Below the pieces are notes generated by a model. The model saw only the letters and a list, made by a program, of their open reading frames with translations. It searched no databases and was not told the DNA's origin. A stretch of 35,564 bases of DNA. Source: a virus. Both the position numbers and the translations under genes were made by a program. The stretch is from IMG/VR virus record IMGVR_UViG_3300044726_000205, positions 1-35,564 of that record, one strand, 5' to 3'. This document shows positions 5,881-34,591 of the stretch, in pieces (within the stretch, counting starts at the first letter, position 1; each line of letters opens with the position of its first letter).

Positions 5881-7374
5881 TCAGACCGAGAAGGCGTCGA
5901 TCAGCATCGCCGTCCCGATCCCTTCGAGCCGTAGGTTCGCGAGCCAGAGCGCGATCAAACGGTCGCCCGTGTGCTCCTGGAGCGAGTACCGGCGAGCCTC
6001 CCGGATCAGGTATTCGACTTCCGGTTGATCCTTCGGAAGCCGCCAGCGCCGGGCATCGAAGTCGGCCCCCATGCCGCGGATCGCCCAATAGGCCTCGCCC
6101 CGCTTATGGGTCGTCGTCGTGTACTGGCCGAAGATCCGGATGTCGTCGGCCAGCTTCTCGGCCTCCCCCTCCGGGATCCCGAGCTCTTTGGCGACGGCGA
6201 AGATGATCGTCTTGTCCGAGAGCATGGACGCCACGTGCATCTGCGCTTGGTTCGTCTCGACGAGCCATTCGTGCGGCTTGAGCTCCCGCTGCACCTGGAT
6301 CACTTCCCGGATGATCGGCTTCCCGACCCACTGCCCCGAGCGCATGTGCAGGAGATGCTTGAGCCCGTCCTCTTTGGCCAGCCCCTCGACCGCGATCGCC
6401 GAGAGATGGGAGCCTGGCCGTTCGGACGCCCCGAGATCGAGCCCGGCGGTGATCCACTCGAAATACCCCTGGTCGTACTCGCCATGCCACCACCCGGCGG
6501 GATCGTTGCAGAGCCGTTGGCAGTCCCGGATGGACTCGGCGGGGAGGAGATTGGTCGCCGAGCCGAGGGCTACCTGGAGAAACTGCCGGCCGTACTCGAC
6601 GAGCCCGAGCTCGGCCATGAGGGCGGCGAGCCGGTCGGGGGGATAGACCTCGGGGTAGGAGGCTTCGGGATCGGACGCCACCAGCCGCTCGACGTGCCAG
6701 AGCTCGGGGTTCTCTTCTGGGAGCCGGTGAAACGCGTCTTCTTCGTGCCACGTGTTGTTGATGGCCCCGATCTTCCCGTGATTCGAGAGCCGGGTGATGG
6801 CGACCCGCTTGATCCAATCGTAGGTTTTGTCGCGGCCGGCCTCGGTGAAGGCGTTCCGGTTCGTGATGATGTCGTCGAAGTAGAGCCGGTCGAAGCGGGA
6901 CCCCATGATGGTCCCGCCCACCCCGATTGCCTCAACCGAGTAGTGGGGATCGGTGAGGGAGAATTCGAGCTCGCGCTCGACAAGGATTGCGTTCGAGTAC
7001 CAGGCGGCCGGCCGGTTGCCGCTTCCCATGGCCGGGCGGAGATCGGGGTAGACCTCGTGGAGCCGGCCGTTCCACAGGATGTTCTCTTTGATGCGGCCGA
7101 GCCACTTGCGGGAGAGAGTGGCGGTCTCGGAGATGAGACCGATACGGAGATTCGGGTTCTTTCCTAGATCGTCGAGCGGGCGGGCGAGGAGGATCTGGCT
7201 CGACTTACCGTACTCGGGCGGGGCGAAGATGACCGTGCGCTCGTTCTCGTCAATCGCTCTCTGCCATTTCAGGTGGAACGACTTCGGCGTCAGCCTCAAC
7301 GCGTACTCGGCCAGGAACGCGGGGTTGGAGCGCGCGGCCCCGAGCGAATAGCTCGTTAGCACGCCGGACGGCAT
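5881..7374 (-). CDS. terL: Terminase large subunit (packaging ATPase/nuclease)
   Basis: TerL powers DNA packaging into the prohead and cuts the concatemer. The 497-residue product has an N-terminal ATPase with a degenerate Walker A (APPEYGKSS, residues 51-59), a Walker B-type strand (RLYFDDIIT, about 163-171) and the coupling region GVGGTIMGSR. The C-terminal RNase H-like nuclease begins at ITAGLDLGASE (Asp 313). The start at 7374 is supported by the typical N-terminus ARSNPAFLAEYALR; the open frame upstream is out-of-frame noise. It overlaps terS by 125 bases, which is unusually long. Codons 285-295 contain one copy of a 32-bp repeat shared with an early gene. Confidence 0.92.
   Translation of the reverse strand: MPSGVLTSYSLGAARSNPAFLAEYALRLTPKSFHLKWQRAIDENERTVIFAPPEYGKSSQILLARPLDDLGKNPNLRIGLISETATLSRKWLGRIKENILWNGRLHEVYPDLRPAMGSGNRPAAWYSNAILVERELEFSLTDPHYSVEAIGVGGTIMGSRFDRLYFDDIITNRNAFTEAGRDKTYDWIKRVAITRLSNHGKIGAINNTWHEEDAFHRLPEENPELWHVERLVASDPEASYPEVYPPDRLAALMAELGLVEYGRQFLQVALGSATNLLPAESIRDCQRLCNDPAGWWHGEYDQGYFEWITAGLDLGASERPGSHLSAIAVEGLAKEDGLKHLLHMRSGQWVGKPIIREVIQVQRELKPHEWLVETNQAQMHVASMLSDKTIIFAVAKELGIPEGEAEKLADDIRIFGQYTTTTHKRGEAYWAIRGMGADFDARRWRLPKDQPEVEYLIREARRYSLQEHTGDRLIALWLANLRLEGIGTAMLIDAFSV
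6492..6523. repeat. 32-bp perfect direct repeat, copy 1 (inside terL)
   Basis: Bases 6492-6523 are identical to bases 22548-22579 in the same orientation on the top strand. Here the sequence is read on the minus strand as terL codons for CQRLCNDPAGW. In the second copy the plus strand is read as PAGSLQSRWQ. Confidence 0.9.
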
Positions 7375-9965: not shown

Positions 9966-10055
9966 CTAACCCTCGCTAAGGTGAACCAGAATCAGGATCC
10001 CGCCCGTGATCGAGACGACCGAAACCATGACGGGGAATAGGATCGCTACGAGCAT
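9966..10055 (-). CDS. Tiny single-pass membrane peptide (29 aa)
   Basis: The peptide is MLVAILFPVMVSVVSITGGI followed by LILVHLSEG, essentially one transmembrane helix. GGAGGAGCC directly precedes the ATG, which is a strong ribosome-binding site, and the gene overlaps the end of the upstream gene by ten bases. These points support real translation despite the small size. Function is unknown. Confidence 0.6.
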   Translation of the reverse strand: MLVAILFPVMVSVVSITGGILILVHLSEG

Positions 10056-10213
10056 GGCTCCTCCGGGAGCTCGATCGCGTCGACCTCTGCGCGTGCGGCC
10101 TCGATCGAGGGCTCGCTCGCGACGATCCGCCCGTCCTTCGTCACGTACCAGATTCCGAGATGCAGGGAGCACGTGAGCTCGTATCCGCGGTAGACCTCGT
10201 AGAACTTCGCCAT
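10046..10213 (-). CDS. Small hypothetical protein (55 aa)
   Basis: The 55-residue product (MAKFYEVYRGYELTCSLHLG, then a strand-turn-strand and an acidic helix ending PEEPCS) looks like a small beta-beta-alpha fold of unknown family. Its ATG follows GGAGAATCCG, the recurrent ribosome-binding box. It is the first gene downstream of the sigma-54-like element at 10248-10282, about 50 bases after it, so it probably heads a transcription unit. Confidence 0.7.
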   Translation of the reverse strand: MAKFYEVYRGYELTCSLHLGIWYVTKDGRIVASEPSIEAARAEVDAIELPEEPCS

Positions 10214-10247
10214 CGGATTCTCCAGGCTCGGCGCGGGCCCCATTGTC

Positions 10248-10282
10248 CGCGCACGCCCATAGACATTGCACGGGACGTGCCA
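10248..10282 (-). promoter_or_regulatory. Sigma-54-like promoter element, copy A
   Basis: On the minus strand this reads TGGCACG, CCC, GCAATG and GGG in fixed register. GG and GC are 10 bases apart, as in the sigma-54 -24/-12 consensus. The same 35-bp pattern occurs at 15004-15038 and 15756-15790. It is 35 bases from the ATG at 10213 and lies in a non-coding gap. Confidence 0.65.
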
Positions 10283-10415
10283 TGGGAGAATCGCTCGTAA
10301 GTCGTTGAGGTAGCGCTTGGGTCGGATCACCCGAGGCACCGGCCGCGGCTATTCGCCATTGCCGATCTCGCATCTTGCGAGAAGTCACCCGACCCTTGCG
10401 CCAATGGACCCATGA

Positions 10416-10433
10416 CCCCATGGAACCATGGGG
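10416..10433. repeat. 18-base palindrome
   Basis: CCCCATGG and CCATGGGG flank the two bases AA, giving a near-perfect twofold-symmetric site. Its place in the regulatory gap about 135 bases upstream of sigma-54-like copy A fits an activator or repressor site, but chance cannot be excluded in GC-rich DNA. Confidence 0.4.
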
Positions 10434-10569
10434 CCCGGCCGGGGGCGACCGCTACCGTTCCCGCTCGCCGATTCAGGAAGATTGGACCCTTCACGAATCA
10501 ACTAACCCGAGCGAAACAAGTCGCAGGGGTCGAGCGGTTCAGGTCGCGGCGCCCGTGCCGGGAAGAGAT

Positions 10570-10600
10570 GCCGCGCGCGGAAAGGCCACCCGCGCGCGGC
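10570..10600 (-). terminator. GC-rich hairpin terminator
   Basis: Perfect 11-bp arms (GCCGCGCGCGG at 10570-10580 and its complement at 10590-10600) enclose a 9-base loop. On the minus strand the stem is followed by ATCTCTTCC, a weak T-containing tail. It lies 48 bases past the stop of the gene at 10648 and probably ends that transcription unit. Confidence 0.6.
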
Positions 10601-10647
10601 TTACAAGCCCGCAGAGATGGAGACCTCCGGGCCTGCTAGCGCCTTCC

Positions 10648-10926
10648 TTAGTCGCCGTAGGTCGGCTTGAACGCGACGAGCGACGTGAAGCTGGCCTTGA
10701 TCTTGGCGATCACATCCTCAAGGTCCGCTTCCCGCCGCTCGCGCCAGCTACCACCGGTAGAACTACCGCCACCGCCACCGCACCAGGACGCGGGCTCACG
10801 AGCCCCGCGTCGCTCGCTGCAATCGTCCCAATCGCCCGCCTGGACGTTGATGCACGCCGCGCGAGCGATCTCGGGTGCTACTCCGAGAGCGACCAGCGCG
10901 AGTGCTACGATCAGATATCGCCTCAT
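10648..10926 (-). CDS. Secreted small protein with signal peptide (92 aa)
   Basis: The N-terminus MRRYLIVALALVALGVAPEI ending ARA-A is a clear Sec signal peptide with cleavage expected around residue 24. The mature part has three cysteines, a Gly/Ser-rich loop and a C-terminal helix. The ATG at 10926 has GGAGG five bases upstream and overlaps the upstream gene by four bases. An exported phage protein of this size might act in the periplasm, for example in lysis control or exclusion, but nothing identifies the role. Confidence 0.7.
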   Translation of the reverse strand: MRRYLIVALALVALGVAPEIARAACINVQAGDWDDCSERRGAREPASWCGGGGGSSTGGSWRERREADLEDVIAKIKASFTSLVAFKPTYGD

Positions 10927-11492
10927 CGCTTCCTCCTGCATGGTATGCAACGCTCGACCCCATTCACATCGACAATGCGAACAGAGCCCGGAACTTCCTC
11001 CCTACCCCGCACAGTGACGACCGAGATATAGGATCGCATCCCTGGATCCCAATACTTCTCGGGCATGGAGCGAAACCAGAGCGTGTCAATGCTCGCGGCT
11101 CGTGTCCATATCACCTTCGCCGCGCGTTCCTCGCGTGGCACGTCCAGAACGATGATGCGGTTGGCGAGCGTGATCTCGCTATAGCCGGCTTCGAGCGCAC
11201 GCGCGGCTAGCCAATCCTGCGACCGCTGCCACGGAAGCGGCGCCCCGGTCTGCGCGTTGAACATAACGTCCGAGCAGTACCATCCGATTGGCGGGCTTGC
11301 GTGGGCGATGGCGGCGGCGAGCATTAGGAGCACAAATAGCGCGGCCATGAGCGCGCTGGCGATTGTGCAGATTCGGCGCATCTCGCGGTTATGCTTCTCG
11401 ATGATGGGCAGCATGATCTCGCGCGGGATGCGCAGGGATGGATTGGCTTCCTGGCAGGCCGGGCAGGCACAGTCGCGGATGTCGAGTCTCAC
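10923..11492 (-). CDS. Membrane protein with N-terminal CxxC and periplasmic domain (189 aa)
   Basis: A short cytosolic start with DCACPACQ precedes one transmembrane helix (ICTIASALMAALFVLLMLAA, residues about 42-62) and a soluble domain of about 120 residues, which should lie in the periplasm. That domain has paired cysteines near its C-terminus (CIPC). Translation begins at GTG (GTGA overlap) with AGGAGG 7 bases upstream. Together with the next gene it forms a membrane/secreted pair. No family is recognised. Confidence 0.7.
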   Translation of the reverse strand: MRLDIRDCACPACQEANPSLRIPREIMLPIIEKHNREMRRICTIASALMAALFVLLMLAAAIAHASPPIGWYCSDVMFNAQTGAPLPWQRSQDWLAARALEAGYSEITLANRIIVLDVPREERAAKVIWTRAASIDTLWFRSMPEKYWDPGMRSYISVVTVRGREEVPGSVRIVDVNGVERCIPCRRKR

Positions 11493-11827
11493 TCCCCGTC
11501 CTCCTTCTCTATCCATTGCTGGTTGTCGCTGTCGGCCGACGATCCGTCAAGCTGCCGCATAAAGCGCCAATCATCCGAGCGTGGGAAGTATTCCTTGGTT
11601 TCATCCAGGAACCGCACCCGGTTGGTCGGGTCGGTCATGTCCTCGCGCTCATCGTCATCGTGCTCCCATCCGACCCTAATCCCGTCGTGACCGCACTCAT
11701 TGCAGTGCTTAGCCAGGAACTTGAACGAGTCGATAATGTCGAAGTTGCCCCATCCCCATGCCTGCCGGGAGAAGAAGCCGCCGGACTGGTTGCACTTCGT
11801 GCAGACGAAGTGATAGAAGGTGCTCAC
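11489..11827 (-). CDS. Zinc-ribbon hypothetical protein (112 aa)
   Basis: The N-terminal half contains FVCTKCNQSGGFFSRQ and KHCNECGHDGIRV, a four-cysteine zinc ribbon. The rest is acidic and rich in Asp/Glu (EHDDDEREDMTDPTNRV). The GTG start overlaps the upstream stop as GTGA and has GAGGAG 8 bases upstream. Such ribbons occur in phage transcription or nuclease-accessory proteins, but this one is not assignable. Confidence 0.7.
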   Translation of the reverse strand: MSTFYHFVCTKCNQSGGFFSRQAWGWGNFDIIDSFKFLAKHCNECGHDGIRVGWEHDDDEREDMTDPTNRVRFLDETKEYFPRSDDWRFMRQLDGSSADSDNQQWIEKEDGE

Positions 11828-12114
11828 TTGCCCGGCTCCTCGCCCGCGTCCTTCATCGCCTCGGCCCAGGGGAGCAGCCACTCTCCGCTTTCTGTCGCGG
11901 CCTGTCGCTCCTTCTCTCCAAAAATCTCTGTTAGCAGCTTTTCGTTGCAGGCAGCCTTCGCCAACCGCTCCGCGAAGTCGGCGGCGATGCGGGCGAAGCG
12001 CTCTAGGCACTGTGGACACGGGTTGACCGCAGATACGGAACAGATTCCAGATATGTCGTTCATCCGTTCCGCGAGCCACCGCTCCGCCGCCTCTCGCGTG
12101 CTGTCGGTGGTCAT
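11824..12114 (-). CDS. Helical hypothetical protein (96 aa)
   Basis: The product is largely helical (TREAAERWLAERMNDISGI, then FARIAADFAERLAKAACNEK) with one CPQC pair in the middle. The ATG at 12114 overlaps the upstream stop as ATGA; longer in-frame starts lie inside the neighbour and look unreal. Function is unknown. Confidence 0.7.
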   Translation of the reverse strand: MTTDSTREAAERWLAERMNDISGICSVSAVNPCPQCLERFARIAADFAERLAKAACNEKLLTEIFGEKERQAATESGEWLLPWAEAMKDAGEEPGK

Positions 12115-12338
12115 GGCTTGGCACCACGCGAGCTGAACAGGGCAGCTTGCGATAGTCCGGGCTTGGTCTGTTGGCAGACGGGACAAATGGCCTTGCGCTC
12201 CACCATGCTCCCGGTAAACCAAGTCCATCCCGCCCAATCTAGCTCTGGCAGCGTTCCACTTGCCCGTTTTTCGCAAAGACAGCAAGCCAGGATTTCTACC
12301 GGCCAGAAATTAAGAAAGGCCGAATGGGCGCGTATCAC
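12111..12338 (-). CDS. Zinc-ribbon-like hypothetical protein (75 aa)
   Basis: Two cysteine pairs, CCLCEKRASG and CPVCQQTKPG, separated by about 35 residues (including DWAGWTWFTG) suggest a zinc ribbon. GTG is the start, overlapping the upstream stop as GTGA with GGAGGGG 5 bases before it. That ribosome-binding site lies inside one copy of a 36-bp repeat. Confidence 0.65.
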   Translation of the reverse strand: MIRAHSAFLNFWPVEILACCLCEKRASGTLPELDWAGWTWFTGSMVERKAICPVCQQTKPGLSQAALFSSRGAKP

Positions 12339-12538
12339 GGCTTCCCCTCCTCCGCTGCATCCGCTTCGGCGGCGCGCTCGCCGTCAAACTGCATGCCAGG
12401 ATCGTTGCTCTTGGCTTGCATTACATACCATTGCTTAATGTCTTTGCGGTTCGCTAATCCTGGTTGAGAGTAGTAAGCTGCCAGCGCACGCCGGAATTGC
12501 TCGTCAACTTCCACTGTGAAACACACTCTAACTTTCAT
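12335..12538 (-). CDS. Small hypothetical protein (67 aa) with duplicated C-terminal tail
   Basis: The first 25 residues (MKVRVCFTVEVDEQFRRALA) resemble a strand followed by a helix, as in small ribbon-helix-helix-like or accessory proteins. The C-terminal eleven residues (EADAAEEGKP region) are identical to those of the upstream protein encoded at 12535-13008, because a 36-bp segment is repeated. The ATG overlaps the upstream stop as ATGG/TGA coupling. Confidence 0.65.
   Translation of the reverse strand: MKVRVCFTVEVDEQFRRALAAYYSQPGLANRKDIKQWYVMQAKSNDPGMQFDGERAAEADAAEEGKP
12339..12374. repeat. 36-bp direct repeat, copy 1
   Basis: These bases are identical to 12539-12574. Each copy holds the last twelve codons of a small gene and the ribosome-binding site for the next one. 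They are 200 bases apart, one gene length. Confidence 0.85.
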
Positions 12539-13008
12539 GGCTTCCCCTCCTCCGCTGCATCCGCTTCGGCGGCGGCGATGTACTCCTTGATCTGCACGCA
12601 TTGAGGGCAGCCCTTGCTGATTGGATGCAGACGATGTACTGCATGGCGCAACAATTCCACCGCCTCGCGCTTGGCCTCGCGGGCTCCTTCCTTGCGTCCA
12701 CGGCGCCGACAGCGCGAGCAGTAGTGCAAGTGTTCGCTCGGGGGCTCGGCCGCTTCCCGTTGGGATATACCGCAACCAGCCTGCGCGTGCGTGCAGGCGC
12801 GACCGTGGATCAGGAAGATCCCGCCAGCACCATACACTCCACGATGGACGAAGTTGACGATCTGCCCGCACCCGCAATCACCACAGCACCGAGCACACAT
12901 GACGTTCTCCGGCGCGATGTGCGGATTCCGCGCGAGCTCGACCCAGCGGTGCCCATGGAATCGGCACGGGAGCGCAGCGAGCCACGCGATGAGGCGGTGC
13001 CACATCAT
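12535..13008 (-). CDS. Cys/His-rich multi-zinc protein (157 aa)
   Basis: The protein begins MMWHRLIAWLAALPCRFHGH, and has a dense metal-binding centre (CARCCGDCGCGQ), then CTHAQAGCG, YCSRCRRRG and a final GCPQC. At least ten cysteines make two or three zinc sites likely. A basic helix (KEGAREAKREAVELLRHAV) precedes the acidic tail that is repeated in the next gene. The ATG overlaps the upstream TGA. Function is unknown; nucleic-acid binding is a reasonable guess only. Confidence 0.65.
   Translation of the reverse strand: MMWHRLIAWLAALPCRFHGHRWVELARNPHIAPENVMCARCCGDCGCGQIVNFVHRGVYGAGGIFLIHGRACTHAQAGCGISQREAAEPPSEHLHYCSRCRRRGRKEGAREAKREAVELLRHAVHRLHPISKGCPQCVQIKEYIAAAEADAAEEGKP
12539..12574. 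repeat. 36-bp direct repeat, copy 2
   Basis: Identical to 12339-12374. It encodes the C-terminal tail of the gene at 12535-13008 and contains the GGAGGGG ribosome-binding site used by the following gene. Confidence 0.85.
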
Positions 13009-13253
13009 CGGAGCCACAAACACTCGTAGGCGGGGTTCTGATAGAGCTTGGCCGAATGAGACGCGACGACGACGCCCGTCTCGACGTGGCGGCCGATCGA
13101 CCAGATCCAGCCCTCGGTCTCGGCGTTGCAGTAGTCCGGCATATCGCTCTCCGGGTCCGGGATCATGTCGCCTTCGAGGATGTAATCCCCGGCCGTTGTT
13201 CGCAGACAGGCGGACACGTCGACGCATTCCCCGGCCGCAAGGCTACGCTCCAT
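13005..13253 (-). CDS. Hypothetical protein (82 aa)
   Basis: The 82-residue product starts MERSLAAGECVDVSACLRTT and is beta-rich, with DYILEGDMIPDPESD and WIWSIGRHVETGVVVASHS. It resembles small phage proteins of SH3-like layout, but the family is not known. The same frame is open back to 13478, so an automatic annotation may call one 157-residue protein. I split it because the upstream stretch fits a different, frameshifted gene, and because residues just before this ATG have poor coding character. Confidence 0.6.
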   Translation of the reverse strand: MERSLAAGECVDVSACLRTTAGDYILEGDMIPDPESDMPDYCNAETEGWIWSIGRHVETGVVVASHSAKLYQNPAYECLWLR

Positions 13254-13478
13254 CGCTTTGTTTCTCAAGTGTCGCCTCCAAGGCTTCCGCGAGCTTGTCG
13301 CGCACTCCATTGATGATCGGCGGCATGGCTCGCAGCAGACATTCCCAGTAGTGGCGGGGGCAGTGACGTTCCTAGCGCCGCATCTACCGCTATTGACCGA
13401 ATGACCTGCGCCACCTTCGTAGCATTCGCATCGCGCCGTCCACGTTCTCTCTAGCGCGGGAAAAATTCCGGCAGCCAT
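13243..13478 (-). CDS. Small gene readable only with a -1 frameshift near 13356-13360
   Basis: Translation from the ATG at 13478 has an excellent site (GGAGGG, 6-base spacing) and gives WTARCECYEGGAGHSV and RCGARNVTAP in one frame. The continuation with good protein character (RHYWECLLRAMPPIINGV, then RDKLAEALEATLEKQSDGA and stop at 13243) is in the -1 frame. The two join naturally at a run of five C residues (minus strand) at 13356-13360, giving about 79 residues. Either one base is missing from the assembly, the gene is mutated, or frameshifting occurs. Without a shift the first frame runs on into the next gene. Two Cys pairs suggest zinc binding. Confidence 0.5.
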
Positions 13479-13481
13479 CGT

Positions 13482-13562
13482 TTACCCTCCGAGGATGCGT
13501 ACAACGGCGATCGACGTAAGTAACGGGACCACGACAAGGACGAAAACCGCGTCGGCGCTCAT
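13482..13562 (-). CDS. Tiny single-pass membrane peptide (26 aa)
   Basis: The peptide MSADAVFVLVVVPLLTSIAV VRILGG is one hydrophobic helix with an acidic start. Its ATG overlaps the upstream stop as ATGA and its 3' end contains the GGAGGG ribosome-binding site of the next gene, so it is embedded in the translation chain. Function is unknown. Confidence 0.5.
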   Translation of the reverse strand: MSADAVFVLVVVPLLTSIAVVRILGG

Positions 13563-13771
13563 GACGACCCCGATCCTGATTCGAGGGCCACGTCGCTCGG
13601 CCCGATTACCTTCCACGTGATGACTTCATATTCGCCACCATCCTCGCCCTCGATCGATGCAGGATCCGCGTCGCTAATTACCGCGAGAAGGATCTCTTCG
13701 AGCTCTTCGCGCTCGGCCGACTTGCCCGACGTTTTTTTCAATTCGACTTCGACGATCAACTTGATTTTCAT
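13559..13771 (-). CDS. Small acidic hypothetical protein (70 aa)
   Basis: The product has a beta-alpha-beta look: MKIKLIVEVELKKTSGKSAE, then REELEEILLAVISDADP, then EYEVITWKVIGPSD, and a Ser/Gly tail. The ATG has GGGGGA 8 bases upstream. No family is recognised. Its stop overlaps the tiny membrane gene downstream. Confidence 0.7.
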   Translation of the reverse strand: MKIKLIVEVELKKTSGKSAEREELEEILLAVISDADPASIEGEDGGEYEVITWKVIGPSDVALESGSGSS

Positions 13772-13776
13772 GGCAT

Positions 13777-14112
13777 CTATCCCCCGTTGGCGAAGAGCTC
13801 GCGCGGTTGCTCGGGGCCGAGATCGAACGGCGGCAGATTGATCCGCTCGTCCTGGTAAGCGGCGAGCAAGAGCGCGATGAATTCGGTCCCGTGCTCCTGG
13901 AGATACGCGCCCGCGATCTCCTCGGCCCGATCCTTTGCCTTGTAGCCGGTGACTTCGAGGCTCCATCCCGTGCGCTGGCCCGCGGGCGGCTTCGCCTCGG
14001 CGCGGAGCTCGACCACTGAATTGAAGCGAACGGTCGCGAGCAAGATCGGATACTGGCCGGCGATCCCGACCCATCCGAATTGCGTGACTCTAAACGGCCA
14101 TTCAGCTTGCAT
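13777..14112 (-). CDS. Hypothetical protein (111 aa)
   Basis: The chain is beta-rich in the first half (GWVGIAGQYPILLATVRF, LRAEAKPPAG, WSLEVTGYKAK) and helical after (RAEEIAGAYLQEHGTEFIAL). I place the start at 14112, preceded by GGAGACTCCA, a variant of the recurrent ribosome-binding box; an ATG at 14124 lies inside that box. Function is unknown. Confidence 0.65.
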   Translation of the reverse strand: MQAEWPFRVTQFGWVGIAGQYPILLATVRFNSVVELRAEAKPPAGQRTGWSLEVTGYKAKDRAEEIAGAYLQEHGTEFIALLLAAYQDERINLPPFDLGPEQPRELFANGG

Positions 14113-14314
14113 TGGAGTCTCCATCGAGTGAAGCCCACACGGTCAGCATTTCGCCGCATCCATCGCACACGCAACCGGGCGGGATTTCGTCGGGCTCGAT
14201 CTTGATGAAATCTTCCGCGGTCGGCGCGTCGGGTGCCGGCGGGCTCGTGATCGTATCCAGGTGGCAGGCGTCGCACGCGTATCCCCAACCGCCACCGATC
14301 GGGAATGCACTCAT
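14102..14314 (-). CDS. Small zinc-ribbon protein (70 aa)
   Basis: Two cysteine pairs, YACDACHLD (residues about 12-17) and CVCDGCGEM (about 48-54), frame a Pro/Asp-rich loop and an acidic segment (AEDFIKIEPDEIPPG). This is the classic layout of a small zinc ribbon. The ATG overlaps the upstream stop as ATGA. Role unknown. Confidence 0.7.
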   Translation of the reverse strand: MSAFPIGGGWGYACDACHLDTITSPPAPDAPTAEDFIKIEPDEIPPGCVCDGCGEMLTVWASLDGDSNAS

Positions 14315-14595
14315 GACTTCCCCCACCCGGAGACCGGGGAACAGAAGGGGCACTTGCCGGCCTTGAGACCCGAGCCGCACCCGCCGCACGCGGCCCCGCG
14401 GTCGACGAGATCGTCGAGCCGGATGCCGGCCGCGGCGAGCACGGCCGCGCGCTTCGCCTTCTCGCGGGCGCGGGCGTCGGCCTTGGCGGCTTCGGCGGCG
14501 AGGGTCGAGGGCGCCATCGCGCGCAAGTCGACGAGCGGGAGCACGAGCGTCGGGTTCGTGTCGACCGGCTCGACGTGTCCAGGAATCCGCTTCAT
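14311..14595 (-). CDS. Helical protein with C-terminal zinc ribbon (94 aa)
   Basis: The N-terminal third is extended (VEPVDTNPTLVLPLVDLRAM). It is followed by a long Ala/Lys/Arg helix (AEAAKADARAREKAKRAAVL) and a C-terminal CGGCGSGLKAGKCPFC ribbon. The arrangement suits a nucleic-acid or protein-binding adaptor. The ATG follows the preceding stop by two bases, with GAGGA upstream. No family name can be given. Confidence 0.7.
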   Translation of the reverse strand: MKRIPGHVEPVDTNPTLVLPLVDLRAMAPSTLAAEAAKADARAREKAKRAAVLAAAGIRLDDLVDRGAACGGCGSGLKAGKCPFCSPVSGWGKS

Positions 14596-14597
14596 GG

Positions 14598-14972
14598 CTA
14601 TGAGTCCTCCCGCGGCATCCAGGGGCCATCATCGCGGATCGAGTCCGCGCGGTAGTCGTGATCGTCGTCGCGTGAGCCGGCGGCCGGGAGTGCGTCGATC
14701 GCCGACTGGATCCGCTCGGCGAGCGGGGCGGTGTCGATTGCGAGCCGAAGCCGAACCTCGACCGCCTGCTCGTTCGCAAGGCATTCGGTCATGATCCGCT
14801 TATCGCGACGATCGAGCCATTCGATCATGTCCTGGAGTCGGTTGATTTCGGCGCGCTCGCCCGAGATACGCACGTCATCGAAGCGGCGCATGACCGCCTG
14901 GGTCGCCCGCAAGGTCCACGCTGCCCGGCGCGGGTAGCTCGTGTTGATCGACTCTCCAGGGATTCGGCTCAT
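14598..14972 (-). CDS. Helical hypothetical protein (124 aa)
   Basis: The 124-residue protein is mainly helical (TLRATQAVMRRFDDVRISGE, then INRLQDMIEWLDRRDKRIM, then VEVRLRLAIDTAPLAERIQ) with an acidic Asp-rich end. The ATG has GGGAGAGACCG upstream, a form of the recurrent ribosome-binding box. It is the first gene after sigma-54-like element B and probably heads a transcription unit. Function unknown. Confidence 0.7.
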   Translation of the reverse strand: MSRIPGESINTSYPRRAAWTLRATQAVMRRFDDVRISGERAEINRLQDMIEWLDRRDKRIMTECLANEQAVEVRLRLAIDTAPLAERIQSAIDALPAAGSRDDDHDYRADSIRDDGPWMPREDS

Positions 14973-15003
14973 CGGTCTCTCCCGTTTCGCTGCGCGCCCA
15001 TCG

Positions 15004-15038
15004 CGCAGACACCCCTATACATTGCAGGGGCCGTGCCA
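15004..15038 (-). promoter_or_regulatory. Sigma-54-like promoter element, copy B
   Basis: On the minus strand TGGCACG is followed in register by CCC, TGCAATG and GGGG, with the GG and GC dinucleotides 10 bases apart. This is the best match of the three copies to the -24/-12 consensus (TGGCACG, four bases, CTGCA). It lies 32 bases before the ATG at 14972. Confidence 0.7.
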
Positions 15039-15119
15039 CCCCTAACCCCTTGCGCCACCGTCCGGCGCCGGGCCCGCTCGGGCAATCCGCCGTTGCAGGC
15101 CGGGCGATCCGCCGATGTC

Positions 15120-15320
15120 TCATTCCGAGACCGTGGTTCGGAGCTCGTCGCGGAGTGCCGCGTGGCCGACGGCGAGCGCCGAGATCATGGTCGGGGCTTC
15201 GCCTTCGTCCAGTACATCGGGCGCAAACTTCGGCGGCCCTTCGCGCATGAGGGACCAGCGATACATATCGCTCGACGCTTCGTGCCAGGCCTCGACCCAT
15301 AGCTCTCGGTTCTTTTCCAT
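15120..15320 (-). CDS. Small hypothetical protein (66 aa)
   Basis: The product (MEKNRELWVEAWHEASSDMY, followed by RWSLMREGPPKFAPDVLDE and a helix) is unrecognised. The ATG has the recurrent box GGAGAATCCG. The frame is open upstream through the neighbouring frameshifted gene, but the box and a hairpin at 15341-15363 separate the two. Confidence 0.65.
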   Translation of the reverse strand: MEKNRELWVEAWHEASSDMYRWSLMREGPPKFAPDVLDEGEAPTMISALAVGHAALRDELRTTVSE

Positions 15321-15340
15321 CGGATTCTCCGGTTGCCAGA

Positions 15341-15363
15341 GCGGGGCCCCTTCGGGGCCCCGC
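15341..15363 (-). terminator. GC hairpin between two minus-strand genes
   Basis: Ten-base arms (GCGGGGCCCC and its complement) pair around a three-base loop. On the minus strand the hairpin comes 11 bases after the stop of the first gene of this strand block and 21 bases before the ATG of the second. With no T-tract it may be a partial terminator or RNA-stability element. Confidence 0.55.
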
Positions 15364-15373
15364 CTTGCGGTTG

Positions 15374-15644
15374 TTAGTTGTCCGACTCCATCACCACCGC
15401 CTCGACTTCGGTCGCATTCCGCCACGTCGCATCCCCGATGATCCGCGGATCGCAGAAGTATTTGAAAATCCGCTGCGAGTCCCGCCACTGCACGTTCTCC
15501 GGCCGCGCTTTGATCCTTGACCGCGTTCATGTAGTCGAGATGCGCGACCGGGTGATAGCTCCGGGTCGCTTCCGGGAGCGGGACGGCTGCGATCTCATCG
15601 GTCGAGGCATTCCATCCGCCCGCGTGCAACACCAGACCGTTCAT
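15374..15644 (-). CDS. First leftward gene; readable only with a +1 frameshift near 15510
   Basis: From the ATG at 15644 (GGAGAG site, 6-base spacing) the frame gives MNGLVLHAGGWNASTDEIAA, then ATRSYHPVAHLDYMNAVK. The sequence with good coding character beyond that point, ARPENVQWRDSQRIFKYF and ATWRNATEVEAVVMESDN, lies in the +1 frame and stops at 15374. The intact product would be about 90 residues. Its beginning resembles the N-terminus of some phage DUF932-type proteins, though much shorter. A one-base assembly error, mutation or programmed shift are all possible; a separate gene starting at GTG 15493 is less likely. Confidence 0.5.
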
Positions 15645-15755
15645 GTTGGACTCTCCAGTGTTGGGGTTGAGTGCCGGCGGGGGGCTTGTTGGTCGCCGTT
15701 CTCCGGGACCGGGGTTTTCACCCGGCGTCGCCCCGGCAGCCCCTCCCGCGTTCCC

Positions 15756-15790
15756 CGCCGACACCCCTTGCCATTGCGAGGGTCGTGCCA
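15756..15790 (-). promoter_or_regulatory. Sigma-54-like promoter element, copy C
   Basis: On the minus strand this reads TGGCACG, CCC, CGCAATG and GGGG in the same register as copies A and B. The -12 part is CGCA rather than TGCA. It is about 110 bases upstream of the first leftward gene (ATG at 15644). Confidence 0.6.
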
Positions 15791-15907
15791 GATTCTAGGC
15801 GGGCCCGATGTCCTTGTGCCGCAATGGCTTGGGTCAATCCTACCGCGGGGTCGAGCTCGGCCTCCCCTGCATTCCGCCCGTGCACCCTCGCAACCCGCAA
15901 CACCACT

Positions 15908-15935
15908 AGCCTAGCAGATTCACAAGAAAACGCAA
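15908..15935 (-). promoter_or_regulatory. Possible sigma-70-type leftward promoter
   Basis: On the minus strand TTGCGT (15930-15935) and TAGGCT (15908-15913) are 16 bases apart, acceptable -35 and -10 boxes. The region is locally AT-richer than the rest and lies in the divergent gap. The same -10 hexamer occurs in the rightward candidate. Confidence 0.45.
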
Positions 15936-27672: not shown

Positions 27673-28173
27673 TTACCGACGCTTGAACAGATTGCCGCGA
27701 TCCTTCCCGATCCACTGCACGAGCGCCGCACCGAGGAACGACAGAAGTTGTGCAGCGAAGAATCCCCCGATTGAGCGGAAGATCGTGTTCGGCGTCCCGC
27801 CCTCCGGCACGAGATCGACCACGATGCCCGTCGTGTCCACTTGCGCGTGCGCCCGGAACGCGAAGGCCAACGCCCCGAGCGCCCCTGCGATCGCGATCGA
27901 GCGCAGAGCGGCCGTCGATACCGAGACCGGGGGTGCAATGATCTTCGACATCGCCCACCCCGATGTCAGTGCCGCATAGACGAGCGCGATCTGGAGATTG
28001 AAGGCGTCCCAATCGAGTGGGGTCGCGAGAATCACCACCAGCACGATCACACCCGCAATGCCCCACAGGAAGAGCGGGCGCAAGCGCTCGGGGATCCAAC
28101 GATTGATGAGCTCCTGCACGGGGCTCCCAAGCCCGAACAGCGCCCATACCCATCCGGGAATGTATTCACTCAT
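27673..28173 (-). CDS. Membrane protein with three helices (166 aa), holin-like candidate
   Basis: Three hydrophobic segments are visible: LFLWGIAGVIVLVVILATPL, IALVYAALTSGWAMSKIIAP and a region around ALRSIAIAGALGALAFAF, plus a weaker one near the C-terminus (GGFFAAQLLSFLGAALVQ). A basic end (GKDRGNLFKRR) follows. The length and helices would suit a holin or a GtrA-like flippase partner in a glycosylation cassette, and neither is proven. The ATG at 28173 overlaps the previous gene by four bases, with GGAG 8 bases upstream. Confidence 0.6.
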   Translation of the reverse strand: MSEYIPGWVWALFGLGSPVQELINRWIPERLRPLFLWGIAGVIVLVVILATPLDWDAFNLQIALVYAALTSGWAMSKIIAPPVSVSTAALRSIAIAGALGALAFAFRAHAQVDTTGIVVDLVPEGGTPNTIFRSIGGFFAAQLLSFLGAALVQWIGKDRGNLFKRR

Positions 28174-28841
28174 GAAACGAGCTCCCTTCCTTTTGCGACC
28201 TCGAACACTGGAGGTTTCAAGTCGGGCGTCAGTTGCCCGTACCAATCGATCCCCGGGATCGAGCGCGGCTCTTTGCCGAGCTCGCCGTACCGATCGCCTG
28301 TCATCTCGCGCACAATGCGATCAAAGGGGAGCGACCATTCGGCATGGCAGCCATCGAAGCCGCGGAAGTCGGTCATCGATAGTTGCTCCCACAGGGAATC
28401 GATTTCCGAGAAGCGGTTCGGCCCGATGACTTGGATCGCACTCTCGGGGAATCCATGGCGCGCGCACCAAAATGCCGTCCATCCCGACGTAAGCTCGGCG
28501 AGCTTGTCAACCATCCGCCAGCTACAGATGTAGAAATCGGACTCGATGTGAATGATCCGCTCGCAGCCCGCGAGCCGAGCGGCACGCGACGCGTAGGCGA
28601 ATGAGCGCCACCAGCCGGGGTACGAGAGATGGTTGGGACGGCCGAGATGCGGATAGAGATTCGCGCGGAAGTAGTCGCCCGCGGGCCACGTGACGGGCTC
28701 CGGAAGCCCATCCGCAAAGACAGCGATCACGACCTCGCAGGGCCACGGGATCGCTTGATGGTGGCGGAGCCAGCGGCCCACGCGGGCGTCGAGATCGGCC
28801 GTGGTCTCGGCCCACGCCGTACAGAACACGAGCGTTTTCAA
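28170..28841 (-). CDS. Putative GT-A glycosyltransferase (223 aa)
   Basis: The protein starts MKTLVFCTAWAETTADLDAR, a first strand plus nucleotide-binding loop, and contains CERIIHIESDFYICSWRMV (residues about 93-111), where ESD occupies the DxD-type metal site of GT-A folds. PCEVVIAVFADG is another core strand. The TTG start overlaps the preceding stop as TTGA; the longer open frame upstream belongs to another gene. It lies in the cassette of transferases, which supports sugar transfer, but donor and acceptor are unknown. Confidence 0.6.
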   Translation of the reverse strand: MKTLVFCTAWAETTADLDARVGRWLRHHQAIPWPCEVVIAVFADGLPEPVTWPAGDYFRANLYPHLGRPNHLSYPGWWRSFAYASRAARLAGCERIIHIESDFYICSWRMVDKLAELTSGWTAFWCARHGFPESAIQVIGPNRFSEIDSLWEQLSMTDFRGFDGCHAEWSLPFDRIVREMTGDRYGELGKEPRSIPGIDWYGQLTPDLKPPVFEVAKGRELVS

Positions 28842-29086
28842 CGCACGAACCGCGTGTGTCGGACCGTGACCCACACTCGCCCCAACCAATCCCACACGCT
28901 CTCCCCGTATTCGTGCAGGTTGTCGATCTCCATCTCCCAATAGTGCCGAAGGCACCATTTCCAACCGACGTAATCGAGGATCGCTCGGCGCTGGCATCCA
29001 GGCCTCACACCACCCGGCCCGAGCTTCCAGCACCGCCGGGCTTCCGCTTTCGCGTGGGGATTCGATGCGACTTGGAATGGGCTCAT
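28838..29086 (-). CDS. Small Cys/His/Trp-rich protein (82 aa)
   Basis: The sequence has EARRCWKLGPGGVRPGCQRR and YVGWKWCLRHYWEMEIDN, so C-x12-C and C-x2-H ligands that may bind zinc, then a Trp-rich helix (YGESVWDWLGRVWVTV). It overlaps both neighbouring transferase genes by four bases. No family is recognised; it may be an accessory factor of the adjoining glycosyltransferases. Confidence 0.6.
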   Translation of the reverse strand: MSPFQVASNPHAKAEARRCWKLGPGGVRPGCQRRAILDYVGWKWCLRHYWEMEIDNLHEYGESVWDWLGRVWVTVRHTRFVR

Positions 29087-30351
29087 CGCTTGTCGTGGTC
29101 CACGTGGTAGGCAACGGCGCCTGGCAGGAACTTGAATTTCACGCCCTGACGCGCGAGCGTGAAAGCGAGATGCAGATCGCTCGCCCCGTGGCTCAAGCCC
29201 TCCGAATAGCCGCCCGATCGATCGAAGTCGTCCCGATGGATCGCCCCGCAAAAGAAATAGGGCGCCTGCCGTTGACCGCCCGTGTAGACCTCGACCGGAT
29301 AGCCGCCGACCCGGATCCGGAAAGGCGGGGCTGATGTGCCGGCGCCACCGTCGGGCCGGATGCCATCGGGATCGATCCACGTCCTAACATCCAGACTCGA
29401 CCATCCCCCGCCGACCCCGATCCATCCACGCCGCACCGCATCCGCCACGGGCGCGAGCCCGTGCATGTCGCCTGCGAGCACCGTGGCAAAGGCGACCGTC
29501 CCCCGCTCGCAGGCCTCGGTCAATTGCCGGGCGACGGGCGTCAGGTGCACGACCTCCGCCGATTGCTGGATGAGCACTTGCCCGCGCGCCCTGAACATCA
29601 TGAAGTTGAAGATCTCCGCGGGATCCTTGAGATACTGATTCCCCGGCCGGTCGACGAGTGTCGTCCGGACCCACGAATACTGCTCCAGCATCCGGCGCGT
29701 GCCGTCGGTCGATCCGTCATCGAGGACCAAGCATTCGGTATCGCCGTAGCGCTGCTCGCGAATCGAGTCGAGCGTGCGTCGCAAGAGCTCGGATCGGTTC
29801 CTCGATGAGATGACGATCGACGTGTGCGGTGGCACGTTCCCCCGGTAGTAGGTCCCGACGGTAGCGAGCCCGGAAGGCACGGGCCCCCGGTGGAGCTCCG
29901 TCCATCCTTCGGCGACGAGCTCGTCGTGCGTCCACTGTGCGACGTGCTCCTCGTAGGGATTCCCGAAGGGATCGCCCCGCTGCGGGCAGTCGGTGACGGG
30001 GATCGAGAGGAAAGACGAAACCCCGGCAAGGTCGAGCCGCGCCACAAGCGCGCGAGCGTCATCCTTCGGCATATGCTCCAACACGTCGCCGAGGATCGCG
30101 ACGTCAAAGAGCTCCCACCCGATGTAGAGCCGCGCGTCCTCGCACACCACGTCGGGATAGATCGTCGAGAGATTGAACTCCTCGACGTAGGGCGGCCAGA
30201 TTTCGAGCGCCGTCACGGGCGCCACGTCGCGGAGGATCCGGCCCCACTTGCCCGGCCCGGCGCCGACGTCGATGATCCGACGCGGTTTCATCGCGCGGAT
30301 CCGCTCGACCATCATCGCCTGCCCCGCTTCCGGTTGCTGGCTTTCTGGCAC
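29083..30351 (-). CDS. Fusion of SAM methyltransferase and GT2 glycosyltransferase (422 aa)
   Basis: Residues about 10-165 form a class I SAM-dependent methyltransferase with motif I DVGAGPGKWG (28-37) and ILGDVLEHMP (86-95). Residues about 177-420 form a GT2 glycosyltransferase with SIVISSRNRSELLRRTLDSI and LVLDDGSTDGT (208-218). The product could add a sugar and methylate it, or methylate the acceptor. Starting at GTG 30351 with AAGGG 6 bases upstream. It follows the gene at 30354 after two bases and overlaps the next by four. Confidence 0.85.
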   Translation of the reverse strand: MPESQQPEAGQAMMVERIRAMKPRRIIDVGAGPGKWGRILRDVAPVTALEIWPPYVEEFNLSTIYPDVVCEDARLYIGWELFDVAILGDVLEHMPKDDARALVARLDLAGVSSFLSIPVTDCPQRGDPFGNPYEEHVAQWTHDELVAEGWTELHRGPVPSGLATVGTYYRGNVPPHTSIVISSRNRSELLRRTLDSIREQRYGDTECLVLDDGSTDGTRRMLEQYSWVRTTLVDRPGNQYLKDPAEIFNFMMFRARGQVLIQQSAEVVHLTPVARQLTEACERGTVAFATVLAGDMHGLAPVADAVRRGWIGVGGGWSSLDVRTWIDPDGIRPDGGAGTSAPPFRIRVGGYPVEVYTGGQRQAPYFFCGAIHRDDFDRSGGYSEGLSHGASDLHLAFTLARQGVKFKFLPGAVAYHVDHDKR

Positions 30352-30353
30352 GG

Positions 30354-30641
30354 CTAGCCCTTCGGGAGCTCGTAGGTCCGCGTATCGGGAGTGAACCCGA
30401 TTGCGCCCCGTGTGACCGCTTCGGCGAGCCGGCGGTTGATTTCATCCCGGAGCCGAACGCGATGCTCGCCCGCCTTCCGCGCCTTGAATTCAAGGGCACT
30501 GATCCGCACGTGATCCGGCTCATCCTTCCGACGCTCGGAGAGAATGGATTCGTTGGCGTGATAACACTTGATGTTCTCGATCGAGAGCTTGTCGATGAGC
30601 TCACCGATCGAACAGATGAAGTCGTAAGGATCAGGGATCAT
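30354..30641 (-). CDS. GELIDKL-type helical protein (95 aa)
   Basis: The start DFICSIGELIDKLSIENIKC followed by an acidic/basic helix (SERRKDEPDHVRISALEFKA) looks like short 'GELIDK' proteins found beside glycan-biosynthesis genes in bacteria and phages. Their biochemical role is not established to my knowledge. The rest is helical and charged. The ATG overlaps the upstream methyltransferase end as ATGA. Confidence 0.65.
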   Translation of the reverse strand: MIPDPYDFICSIGELIDKLSIENIKCYHANESILSERRKDEPDHVRISALEFKARKAGEHRVRLRDEINRRLAEAVTRGAIGFTPDTRTYELPKG

Positions 30642-31291
30642 CTCTCGTGCGGTTCCTTTTTGCGGATGCGAATGAAAAACCAGTACGACTGAAACTCGTA
30701 CCACTCCATGAGCGTCCCCGCAAGCGTGACCGTGAAGCGCGATCCCAAGAGATGCCGAAGCCGCGCGATCATGAACTCTTGCGAGCGGCACATCCGGCCA
30801 TCGAACTCGGGCGGCACGTCCGGACGCTCCCAATCGTTCTCCCCCGGGCGGTGCGATCCCGCCACATGGAGCGAGAAGATTCCGCCCGCGACGAGCGCGC
30901 GCGAGACGTGGCGCACCTGCCGGATCAGATCCGGAAGCGCCATGTGCTGTGCCACGAGATGCGAGATCGCGAGATCGTAGGTGTCGGCCGGCAAGATCCC
31001 CGAATCTTCGTCCAGGTAGAACTTCCGGATATGCGGTCGGACGCGGTCCTCCGCTTCGGGCGCGATGTCGAGCGCATCGACCACGGCGCCGAGCCCGTAG
31101 AAGTATCGAGCCGCGTTCCCGTGTCCGACCCCGATGTCGAGGAAGGTCCGCGGGTGTGCTGCCGCCACGATCTCCCGGAGACCGTGCAGGTCAAGCATGT
31201 TCTCGGCCGCGGTCCCGGAGAGCGCATTCCTTGAGACCTCGCTCTCGTTGAACGAGGCATGGACCGCGGCCCACGTGGCGCGATTCGTCAT
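30638..31291 (-). CDS. SAM-dependent methyltransferase (217 aa)
   Basis: A class I methyltransferase with motif I TFLDIGVGHGNAAR (residues about 49-62), an acidic strand end VVDALDIAPEA (70-80) and YDLAISHLVAQHM, the region that follows the third core strand. The C-terminal ALVAGGIFSLHVAGS is typical of small-molecule or sugar methyltransferases. With its neighbours it probably methylates a glycan or sugar intermediate. ATGA overlap at its start. Confidence 0.8.
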   Translation of the reverse strand: MTNRATWAAVHASFNESEVSRNALSGTAAENMLDLHGLREIVAAAHPRTFLDIGVGHGNAARYFYGLGAVVDALDIAPEAEDRVRPHIRKFYLDEDSGILPADTYDLAISHLVAQHMALPDLIRQVRHVSRALVAGGIFSLHVAGSHRPGENDWERPDVPPEFDGRMCRSQEFMIARLRHLLGSRFTVTLAGTLMEWYEFQSYWFFIRIRKKEPHER

Positions 31292-32040
31292 GCCCCCTCC
31301 GCTAGATGCTCGGCCCCCGGCGGGCGAGCGCCGCGCCGCTCGACGGCCTCATGATGATAGACGATCGAATCGTGCGCGAGACCGAACCGCGCCCCGCCTT
31401 CGTGGCAGCGGCGGAAGAATTGACGGTCGGGCGCCATCGTGCCGTCAAAGATCGGAGACCACGGCCCGCACTGCTCCCACCAGGAGCGATGGAGGAGATA
31501 CGGGAACGTGGCGCACTGCTCCCACCCTCCCCGCTCCTCTTCCCACTCCACGCGCTCGACGTAGAGCTCATCGTGCAGGCGCCAGAACTCATCGGCGAGG
31601 AACGTCCCCTCGACCGTGACCCCAAGGTCCCGCGTGATCACGTTCCCCGTACCCTCGACGGGCGTGATATGCGTCGAATTGACGATCGATCCGGGGCCCG
31701 CCTCCGCCGCCCACTTGACGAGATTCCGAAGCCAGTTGCGCCCGAAGGCCATATCCGTATTGACGAGCGCCACCCAATCGTTGACCTCGTAGCCCCACCC
31801 GAATCCGTGGTTCATCATCGCGCGCAATTGCGGCACGTAGGCAAGCCCGTCCACCGTATGGTGGATTAAGCGCCGCGCCGACACGGGCGGATTCTCCAGC
31901 CACTCGGCCACCTGCCGATTGGCAAGCCACGTCACCACGAAATAGTCGAAGTCGGTGCCGGCGTTCTCGGTCAACATCCGCGAGGAGAAGTCGAGCATGT
32001 CGGGGCGCGTCGAACAGAAATTGACGACCGATACTCTCAT
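31288..32040 (-). CDS. GT2-like glycosyltransferase (250 aa)
   Basis: MRVSVVNFCSTRPDMLDFSS and DYFVVTWLANRQ form the first strands of a GT-A fold. WVALVNTDMAFGRNWLRNLV (residues about 89-108) contains the NTD metal site usual in GT2 enzymes. The C-terminal half has GTMAPDRQFFRRCHEGGARF and the final Y-HHE, resembling the acceptor-side ED..L region. The ATG at 32040 overlaps the previous stop as ATGA; the longer frame upstream is not used. Donor sugar unknown. Confidence 0.7.
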   Translation of the reverse strand: MRVSVVNFCSTRPDMLDFSSRMLTENAGTDFDYFVVTWLANRQVAEWLENPPVSARRLIHHTVDGLAYVPQLRAMMNHGFGWGYEVNDWVALVNTDMAFGRNWLRNLVKWAAEAGPGSIVNSTHITPVEGTGNVITRDLGVTVEGTFLADEFWRLHDELYVERVEWEEERGGWEQCATFPYLLHRSWWEQCGPWSPIFDGTMAPDRQFFRRCHEGGARFGLAHDSIVYHHEAVERRGARPPGAEHLAEGA

Positions 32041-32858
32041 TCGCCTAGCACCTCCGCGATCGCCCACGAGATCAGTCCCGGCCGCGCGCGGTAGTTTTCG
32101 CGGGTCAGCGCGCGGTTATATTCCTGATTCTTGCCGCCGTACCAGTGGACCCCGAAGCACTCGGCGGGGAGATCCGGCCACGTGGCGTCCTCGAACATCC
32201 AATCATGCCACCGCATCCACTCGGCCTTGAGCGCGAAGGGATAGACCGCGTACTCGGAGAGCAATTGCTTCGGCTCGGGGATCTCTGCCCACGCGGGAAA
32301 CATCCCGGCCCCACAGCTTTCGTACACGGTCGGGTCGTAGCGCTCGACCGATCGCCGGAACATCTCCCGCCAGAAGTGACACGGGCGCCCCTGGAGGAAT
32401 CCGATCGGCATGTAGCCCGCGCGCGGCCAACCGGTACACACGACCGCGTGAACGTCATGGGTGACGGGCGGCAAGTCCCGGAGGAAGAGAACATCCATGT
32501 CGGCGACCGACCCGCCGTGATGCGCGAGTAGCCACCACGCGAGCAAGTCGGACGTCTGCACGTCAGGGGCCCGGATCGCGGCGATCTCGGGCGCCACATC
32601 CTGTAGCCGCCGGATCTCAACTCCCGCCGGCAATTGGTCGAGATAGTTGGCGCCCATGTCATCCGATTGGAAGTCCTGCGATTCGTGCCAGTGCCGGCTC
32701 ATCGCCCGCGCATTCGTCCGAAATGCGTCATCGTGCGGGCGATGGATCAGCACCACGCGCTCGTGGATCCGCTTGGCGCTCACGAGCGTCATCCAACGAA
32801 GGAACGTCAGATGATCCCCACCCCAATAGAGCCAAAGCGTATCAGATGAAGTTGGCAT
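32037..32858 (-). CDS. DxD glycosyltransferase of the GT32/TcdB-like type (273 aa)
   Basis: The motif GGSVADMDVLFLRDL (residues about 115-129) is the 'GG.y.D.DvlfL.dl' signature of DxD-sugar transferases such as GT32, with DxD at 120-122. The N-terminus LWLYWGGDHLTFLRWMTL matches the 'iw.yWg......l.....' start of this group. The protein ends with a Trp-rich region. It overlaps the radical SAM gene by 17 bases and its downstream neighbour by four. Probably transfers a sugar from a nucleotide donor; acceptor unknown. Confidence 0.75.
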   Translation of the reverse strand: MPTSSDTLWLYWGGDHLTFLRWMTLVSAKRIHERVVLIHRPHDDAFRTNARAMSRHWHESQDFQSDDMGANYLDQLPAGVEIRRLQDVAPEIAAIRAPDVQTSDLLAWWLLAHHGGSVADMDVLFLRDLPPVTHDVHAVVCTGWPRAGYMPIGFLQGRPCHFWREMFRRSVERYDPTVYESCGAGMFPAWAEIPEPKQLLSEYAVYPFALKAEWMRWHDWMFEDATWPDLPAECFGVHWYGGKNQEYNRALTRENYRARPGLISWAIAEVLGE

Positions 32859-33930: not shown

Positions 33931-33943
33931 CTATTCCTTCCTT

Positions 33944-34591
33944 TCATGGGACGTCCCTGTCCCACAAGGTAGGCAAGTCAACGCGGGGCGGCCCTCCTGG
34001 CAACCCCGACGAATTGTGCCCGCGCTCGACGATTGCGAGTGCGTGGCAATCGATCGCCTTGAATCCGAACCGCGCCGCGAGCTCTCCAGCCCACCGCGAG
34101 TCCTCGGCATAGTGCCGTTGCGGAGCGGGCGGAGTCAGGGTCTCGCCGTTAACTTGTCGGCGATGGTACATCCCGCACGTCGGCGTCCGGTTCTCGCCCG
34201 GCGGGAGATGGAACCAGAGCGCACCCGCGAGCGAGATCGGGAACACGCCGAAATGCTGCTCGGTCGGGGTAACGAGGATTGCGCGCCCGAGGGTTTCTAT
34301 CGCGTCCGGGACGTAGTAGTCGTCGTCGTCCAGGTAGAGGATGAAGGTGCCGCGGGCGAGGCTGCGGATCGCCTCGCCCCGGCAGGTAGCTCCACAGTCG
34401 TTGTGCCGCACGTCGCACCGGACGATCGTCCGTCGCGGGTTCCGCATCCAATCGAACGGCACCGGATCCTCGATCCCGTCGACCATGACGACGTGCTCAT
34501 AGTCGACGGACGTCTGGTCGTCGACGCTCCGCATGGTGCGGTGCGACGTCGAGCGAAGGATCGTCGGGGTGATGATCGAGAATTTAGGCAC
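33944..34591 (-). CDS. GT2 glycosyltransferase (215 aa)
   Basis: KFSIITPTILRSTSHRTMRS and YEHVVMVDGIEDPVP give the first GT2 strands and nucleotide site. GTFILYLDDDDYYVPDAIET (residues 81-100) contains the DDDD metal-binding strand typical of GT2 (DDDD..). I set the start at GTG 34591 because the first strand begins there; TTG 34603 is also in frame. It is the first transferase of the cassette. Donor and acceptor unknown. Confidence 0.8.
   Translation of the reverse strand: MPKFSIITPTILRSTSHRTMRSVDDQTSVDYEHVVMVDGIEDPVPFDWMRNPRRTIVRCDVRHNDCGATCRGEAIRSLARGTFILYLDDDDYYVPDAIETLGRAILVTPTEQHFGVFPISLAGALWFHLPPGENRTPTCGMYHRRQVNGETLTPPAPQRHYAEDSRWAGELAARFGFKAIDCHALAIVERGHNSSGLPGGPPRVDLPTLWDRDVP

Follow-up and report, generated by a model that had tools for sequence, protein, structure and literature searches.

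The window analysed here, a stretch of 35,564 bases with a GC content of 64%, is the full IMG/VR record IMGVR_UViG_3300044726_000205 from an uncultivated virus; it is classed as linear, is probably a fragment, and its DNA matched no known phage. Gene calls and family scans delimit a leftward block, running from 15644 to the left end of the window, that contains small unknown genes, an HTH protein, the large terminase subunit (terL, 5881-7374, minus strand; phrog_38, 3.3e-49), a ParB-like gene and a portal gene cut at the left end, the HTH protein adjoining terL being probably the small terminase subunit. A rightward block begins with an Erf recombinase and continues to a helicase and a DNA methylase at 26967; a further leftward block contains genes for glycosyltransferases and a radical-SAM protein. 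In the region 28170-34591 (minus strand), genes for glycosyltransferases, methyltransferases and a radical-SAM/SPASM protein are clustered, possibly for the modification of surface sugars.

Three exact copies of a short element, TGGCACGNCCCNNGCAATG, had been claimed in the preliminary description, and all of them are present without mismatch on the minus strand, at 10264-10282, 15020-15038 and 15772-15790. When up to three mismatches are tolerated, the window holds five matches against 0.59 expected, a number reached by none of 100 shuffled sequences. Each copy agrees with the sigma-54 consensus TGGCACG-N4-TTGCW at 11 of 12 positions and keeps the ten bases between GG and GC that are characteristic of sigma-54 promoters, as had been proposed. 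No other site in the window reaches at least 11 of 12 with an intact GG/GC, where 0.15 would be expected from dinucleotide-model sequences; derived from this rate, the chance that an unrelated repeated element would match the sigma-54 consensus this well, and in the right orientation, is estimated to be near 1 in 25,000.

Setting element position 3 as -24 gives a predicted transcription start for each copy. The core of putative promoter A (15764-15790, minus strand) has a -24 box TGGCACG at 15790-15784, a -12 box TCGCA at 15779-15775 and a predicted +1 at 15764; that of A2, an extra copy in the window phage (15012-15038, minus strand), reads TGGCACG-GCCC-CTGCAATG with +1 at 15012; and that of B (10256-10282, minus strand), located before the block leading into the terminase and late genes and upstream of terL, reads TGGCACG-TCCC-GTGCAATG with +1 at 10256. 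The GGG and GT described downstream of the element lie in register in all three copies, and every copy is indeed placed ahead of a gene start, with predicted leaders of 43, 40 and 120 nt to the ATGs at 10213, 14972 and 15644. The first genes behind B (10046-10213, 55 aa) and A2 (14598-14972, 124 aa), both on the minus strand, are of unknown type. The first gene behind A (15373-15644, minus strand) has a broken frame: its N-terminal part and a plausible C-terminal part, which ends near 15375, are read in different frames. Family scans gave no match for it, and it has the look of a short remnant that recalls a DUF932-like protein minus its middle.

Relatives were found among viral contigs by a DNA pattern scan and an alignment-based terminase scan, a first TerL scan with a single sequence having found none. 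They comprise G001 (60.9 kb), G002 (25.7 kb), the fragment L122 and the more distant G012 (54.8 kb, 57% GC), whose terminase is 52% identical, and tblastn comparison revealed a gene order common to the window and these relatives. Near terL in G012 there is a 40% relative of the window's radical-SAM gene. Random scatter of the element in related genomes, an outcome contemplated at the outset, is not what was found, as the copies occupy equivalent places: site A lies ahead of the leftward block opposite erf (window 15790, G001 22585, G002 7591), and site B before the small genes leading into the terminase block (window 10282, G001 17977, G002 10232, L122 55). In G012, repeat finding without any assumed motif yielded a three-copy family of 34 nt (26471, 27315 and 34078), reading in reverse complement TGGCCCCGGCCTTGCAAT... 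or TGGCCTCCACCTTGCAAT...; its copies precede leftward blocks, one of them facing a rightward block, and their -24 box is altered to TGGCCCC or TGGCCTC, with TTGCAAT kept and the GG/GC spacing identical. All ten sites of the four phages have TGGC, GCAAT and the CC at -17/-16 in common, the bases between them being variable, and GG at -25/-24 is always ten bases from GC at -13/-12. Agreement with TGGCACG-N4-TTGCW amounts to 10 or 11 of 12 in G001 and G002 and to 9 or 10 of 12 in G012, whose A-type site, at 9 of 12 by hand count, tells against a sigma-54 reading.

A loose pattern run over 2.9 million viral contigs retrieved 25 stretches; this family alone is represented more than once in a genome, and the remaining stretches have no leader. 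Other exact 19-mer matches (L005, L006 and L008-L011) are likewise without the leader and were treated as unrelated. The helicase proved to be a mobile gene: another genome, G004, shares the helicase and the methylase, not the element, and was therefore left unused. Structural-half fragments of relatives contained no copy. The sequence, spacing, position and conservation of the element and the clustering of its motifs, together with the foldability of the leaders, are direct observations.

Identity past the sigma-54 core, also claimed beforehand, is borne out by CC ahead of the -12 box, AAT behind it, and RTGYGCG and an AUGGG-loop hairpin past +1. At eight of the ten sites, a hairpin of 6-8 bp with an AUGGG-type loop can be folded from the first 30 nt of the predicted transcript, the exceptions being site A of the window and site B1 of G012. 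These hairpins begin no more than about 6 nt from the predicted start, and their arms differ between sites yet stay complementary, as in CUGCGCG-AUGGG-CGCGCAG (A2) and CGCGGCG-AUGGG-CGCCGCG (site B of G001). In the window, predicted folds start from +5 both at A2 (14990-15008, minus strand; CTGCGCG-ATGGG-CGCGCAG) and at B (10231-10252, minus strand; GCGCGG-(ACAATGGGGC)-CCGCGC). At most sites an arm pairs best, or equal best, with its own partner. Stability relative to shuffled sequences is increased modestly (z from +1.3 to -2.7), the hairpin energies being unremarkable because the DNA is GC-rich. The position of the hairpins supports a transcription start close to the predicted +1, and they may serve for message protection or as a protein site. 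Rfam gave no match, and a conserved upstream ORF beginning at the hairpin AUG was rejected, as the frame is not kept. Another conserved hairpin, GAGCCCCCGC-N-AGGTAGGCGGGGGAGGAAGG, is found directly before a gene at 9940-9905 (minus strand) of the window, where two small genes separate it from promoter B, and also after the B leaders of G001, G002 and L122.

Alignment of the sites of the window, G001 and G002 indicates that the DNA upstream of the element has mostly diverged, with conserved islands. In the B sites, GCAATSGC starts at -106, -106 and -105 in the window, G001 and G002, respectively; in the window this candidate upstream activating motif (GCAATGGC) lies at 10355-10362 (minus strand), adjoined by a perfect dyad, TCTCGCA-AGA-TGCGAGA, at 10382-10366. 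A related motif is present in G012 at -103, at -103 on the reverse strand, and at -114, and repeat finding independently gave repeats of 34-35 nt upstream of all three G012 sites. GCAATNGC is located between -103 and -106 at five B-type sites and, one helical turn further out, at -114 in the A-type site of G012. GCAATSGC occurs at about six places in the whole window, and the B sites of the window group have CGACTTACG in common, some 20 bases ahead of the -24 box. Upstream of promoter A, the alignment displays a conserved block GGTGCACGGGC spanning roughly -122 to -112 (15876-15886, minus strand), which is a candidate for an enhancer, and a second block, TTGACCCAAGCCATTGCGGC (15818-15837, minus strand), while TGACCCAAGCCATTG near -70 is common to the A sites. 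Further upstream lies a sigma-70-like pair, TTGCGT-N16-TAGGCT (15908-15935, minus strand), with N17 in both relatives and TAAGCT for TAGGCT in G002, which possibly constitutes a second promoter for the block behind A; a sigma-70 consensus scan did not pick it up.

For sigma-54 promoters of Desulfovibrio, tGGcacg/tTGCt has been described as the consensus, and the largest share of enhancer sites lies no more than 100 nt away (PMC4641369). The islands reported here fall within the 80-150 bp typical of enhancers (UAS), and as candidate sites they may be bound by an activator. Two aspects count against the sigma-54 reading in this respect: the A motif is not the same as the B motif, and GCAATNGC is missing upstream of A2.

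Which proteins would read such an element? The preliminary description considered the use of sigma-54 by a phage unusual, since it needs an activator ATPase and none was visible. The latter part stands, as the window and the two longer relatives encode none, and the sigma-54 activator domain was not found in the window, G001, G002 or G012; the sigma-54 reading is nonetheless favoured. A model of the sigma-54 DNA-binding domain, searched in G001 and G002, detected nothing, and sigma-54 is absent from the Pfam lists of the window and G012. T7-type RNA polymerase (PF00940) gave no match in the four records, nor in control genomes, and no sigma factor or RNA polymerase family figures among the Pfam and PHROG matches listed for G001, up to 25 families, or the Pfam matches listed for G012. 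The ends of G001 and G012 fall within each other's maps according to tblastn coordinates, so that most of the gene set is seen between them, with a small gap. As neither an activator nor sigma-54 was found in the phage records, both would have to be supplied by the host, whose possession of rpoN is the key condition of this reading. An AAA protein of G012 was considered as the activator and rejected, being Cdc48-like and without the GAFTGA motif. This Cdc48-like ATPase (L126:11316-12869, minus strand) has a large N-terminal region and belongs to the block behind the A-type site; G012 also encodes an SPFH/Band 7 protein. A host search by TerL and portal found no prophage relatives, and no host is named because the isolate relatives of portal and capsid are less than 30% identical and come from phages of mixed hosts. 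Synechococcus phage S-H1 was rejected as host evidence, sharing the helicase alone in a different layout.

Since the conserved islands lie upstream and the hairpins at the 5' end, the units would consist of a promoter plus a leader. We consider it probable that the elements are promoters of the sigma-54 (RpoN) type, each joined to a short leader with a fold of its own: in G012, TGGC and the spacing of GG and GC are kept where the -24 box has otherwise changed, and the placement at two operon starts is orthologous, with islands about 105 bp upstream. Conservation that exceeds sigma-54 needs (CC at -17/-16, AAT after GC, RTGYGCG after +1) counts against it. The promoter-leader units are real and conserved, and most likely of the sigma-54 type, read by the host sigma-54 polymerase with a host enhancer-binding ATPase. 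According to this model, host RNA polymerase with sigma-54 would bind the -24 TGGC and -12 TGC boxes in a closed complex, and an enhancer-binding AAA+ ATPase of the host, attached about 105 bp upstream at the GCAATSGC region (B) or the GGTGCA region (A), would loop in and open it. Transcription would begin at a G about 12 bases past GC, and the transcript would carry the AUGGG-loop hairpin at its 5' end and then a ribosome site of the GGAGA type. Promoter A would drive the non-structural genes of the leftward block, and promoter B the block of terminase and structural genes. From the sequences we infer the binding of sigma-54, the involvement of an activator, the position of the start, the timing of expression and whatever role the hairpin may have.

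The same elements might instead be phage-specific promoters for a phage-encoded polymerase or sigma factor, their likeness to sigma-54 being accidental. Conservation running past +1, as in T7-type promoters, the restriction of the family to one phage group and an activator not encoded in the records would all fit, and the failure to detect a T7-type polymerase domain counts against it weakly, the control genomes having given no match either. The listed matches of G001 and G012 include no sigma factor or polymerase family, the window's sigma-70 region 4-like HTH match, which adjoins terL, is probably the small terminase, and the exact GG/GC spacing would have to be a coincidence, so that we regard this explanation as unlikely. 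Rather less probable still is that the elements are not promoters, acting as operators of a phage repressor or activator over ordinary sigma-70 promoters. GCAAT does appear both in the -12 region and again upstream, the CCC/GGG arms about the -12 box are dyad-like in the window, the conserved TTGCGT/TAGGCT upstream of A is sigma-70-like, and G001 has Cro/CI-type HTH families. Such operators are hard to reconcile with a strictly one-directional placement, with the short leader, hairpin and ribosome site that start right behind, with the loss of the CCC/GGG dyad in G012, and with the absence of sigma-70-like matches overlapping the sites.

That the resemblance is due to chance, or that the repeats are leaders with no role as promoters, for example an RNA element only, seems very improbable. 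The conserved leader hairpin does point to constraint at the RNA level too, and the sigma-54 consensus is itself GC-rich in a GC-rich window, but the low yield of sites of such quality in shuffled sequences speaks against it, as do the conserved islands, which precede the predicted start and so lie outside the reach of any constraint on the RNA.

Bacterial sigma-54 promoters (the Desulfovibrio vulgaris sigmulon, PMC4641369; a cross-phylum set, PMC12316311) share with the sigma-54-type units proposed here the TGGCACG/TGC boxes and their spacing, as well as candidate upstream activating sites about 100 bp away. In contrast to them, the present elements lie in phage genomes, ahead of phage operons and with no phage activator gene, and add CC, AAT, RTGYGCG and the leader hairpin. 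A sigma-54 regulator or sigma-like gene has been reported in phage phi1422 (PMC3391216) and in Pectobacterium phage Q19 (PMC7693777, a weak HHpred match); contact of a phage with the sigma-54 system would be the shared trait, but theirs is a putative regulator or sigma-like gene, whereas here promoters are present and no such gene was found. Late transcription in T4 (PMC2988020) also imposes operon-level control on later genes through host polymerase, using a phage sigma factor, a sliding clamp and a short -10-like box, in contrast to the -24/-12 form without visible phage factor seen here. T7-type promoters are likewise a repeated conserved element including the start site (GGG), unlike the present family in their TAATACGACTCACTATA-like core. 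No report of a sigma-54-driven phage operon, late ones included, was found in the open-access literature searched.

Sigma-54 promoters are silent without an activated ATPase, and a phage using them would therefore gate its genes on host physiology, not on a repressor of its own. The arrangement suggests that a host stress or nutrient signal decides when the middle and late genes of these viruses turn on. In its widest form, the proposal is that in this tailed-phage lineage the non-structural and terminase/structural operons are under host sigma-54 and host enhancer-binding proteins, that lytic progress hinges on a signal from the host concerning nutrients, the envelope or RNA damage, and that most transcripts begin with a phage-specific AUGGG-loop hairpin, a combination that may equally well prove right or wrong. 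If true, it would represent a new principle of lysis timing, with a prediction precise to the base.

Two further features of the relatives may be mentioned. The RNA-repair operon of Salmonella includes a Ro60 homologue, and G001 carries a gene for a TROVE/Ro60-type RNA-binding protein (L107:18099-19463, minus strand) just upstream of its promoter B. The Salmonella operon is reported to be under the control of sigma-54 with RtcR (PMC9879122), and a link between the G001 gene and such control is speculative. In G012, a region of about 1 kb (L126:17583-18643), with GG roughly every five bases and repeated GGCWGCAAAGGT-like units, is perhaps an origin or a protein-binding array, and is followed by a tRNA-Asn gene.
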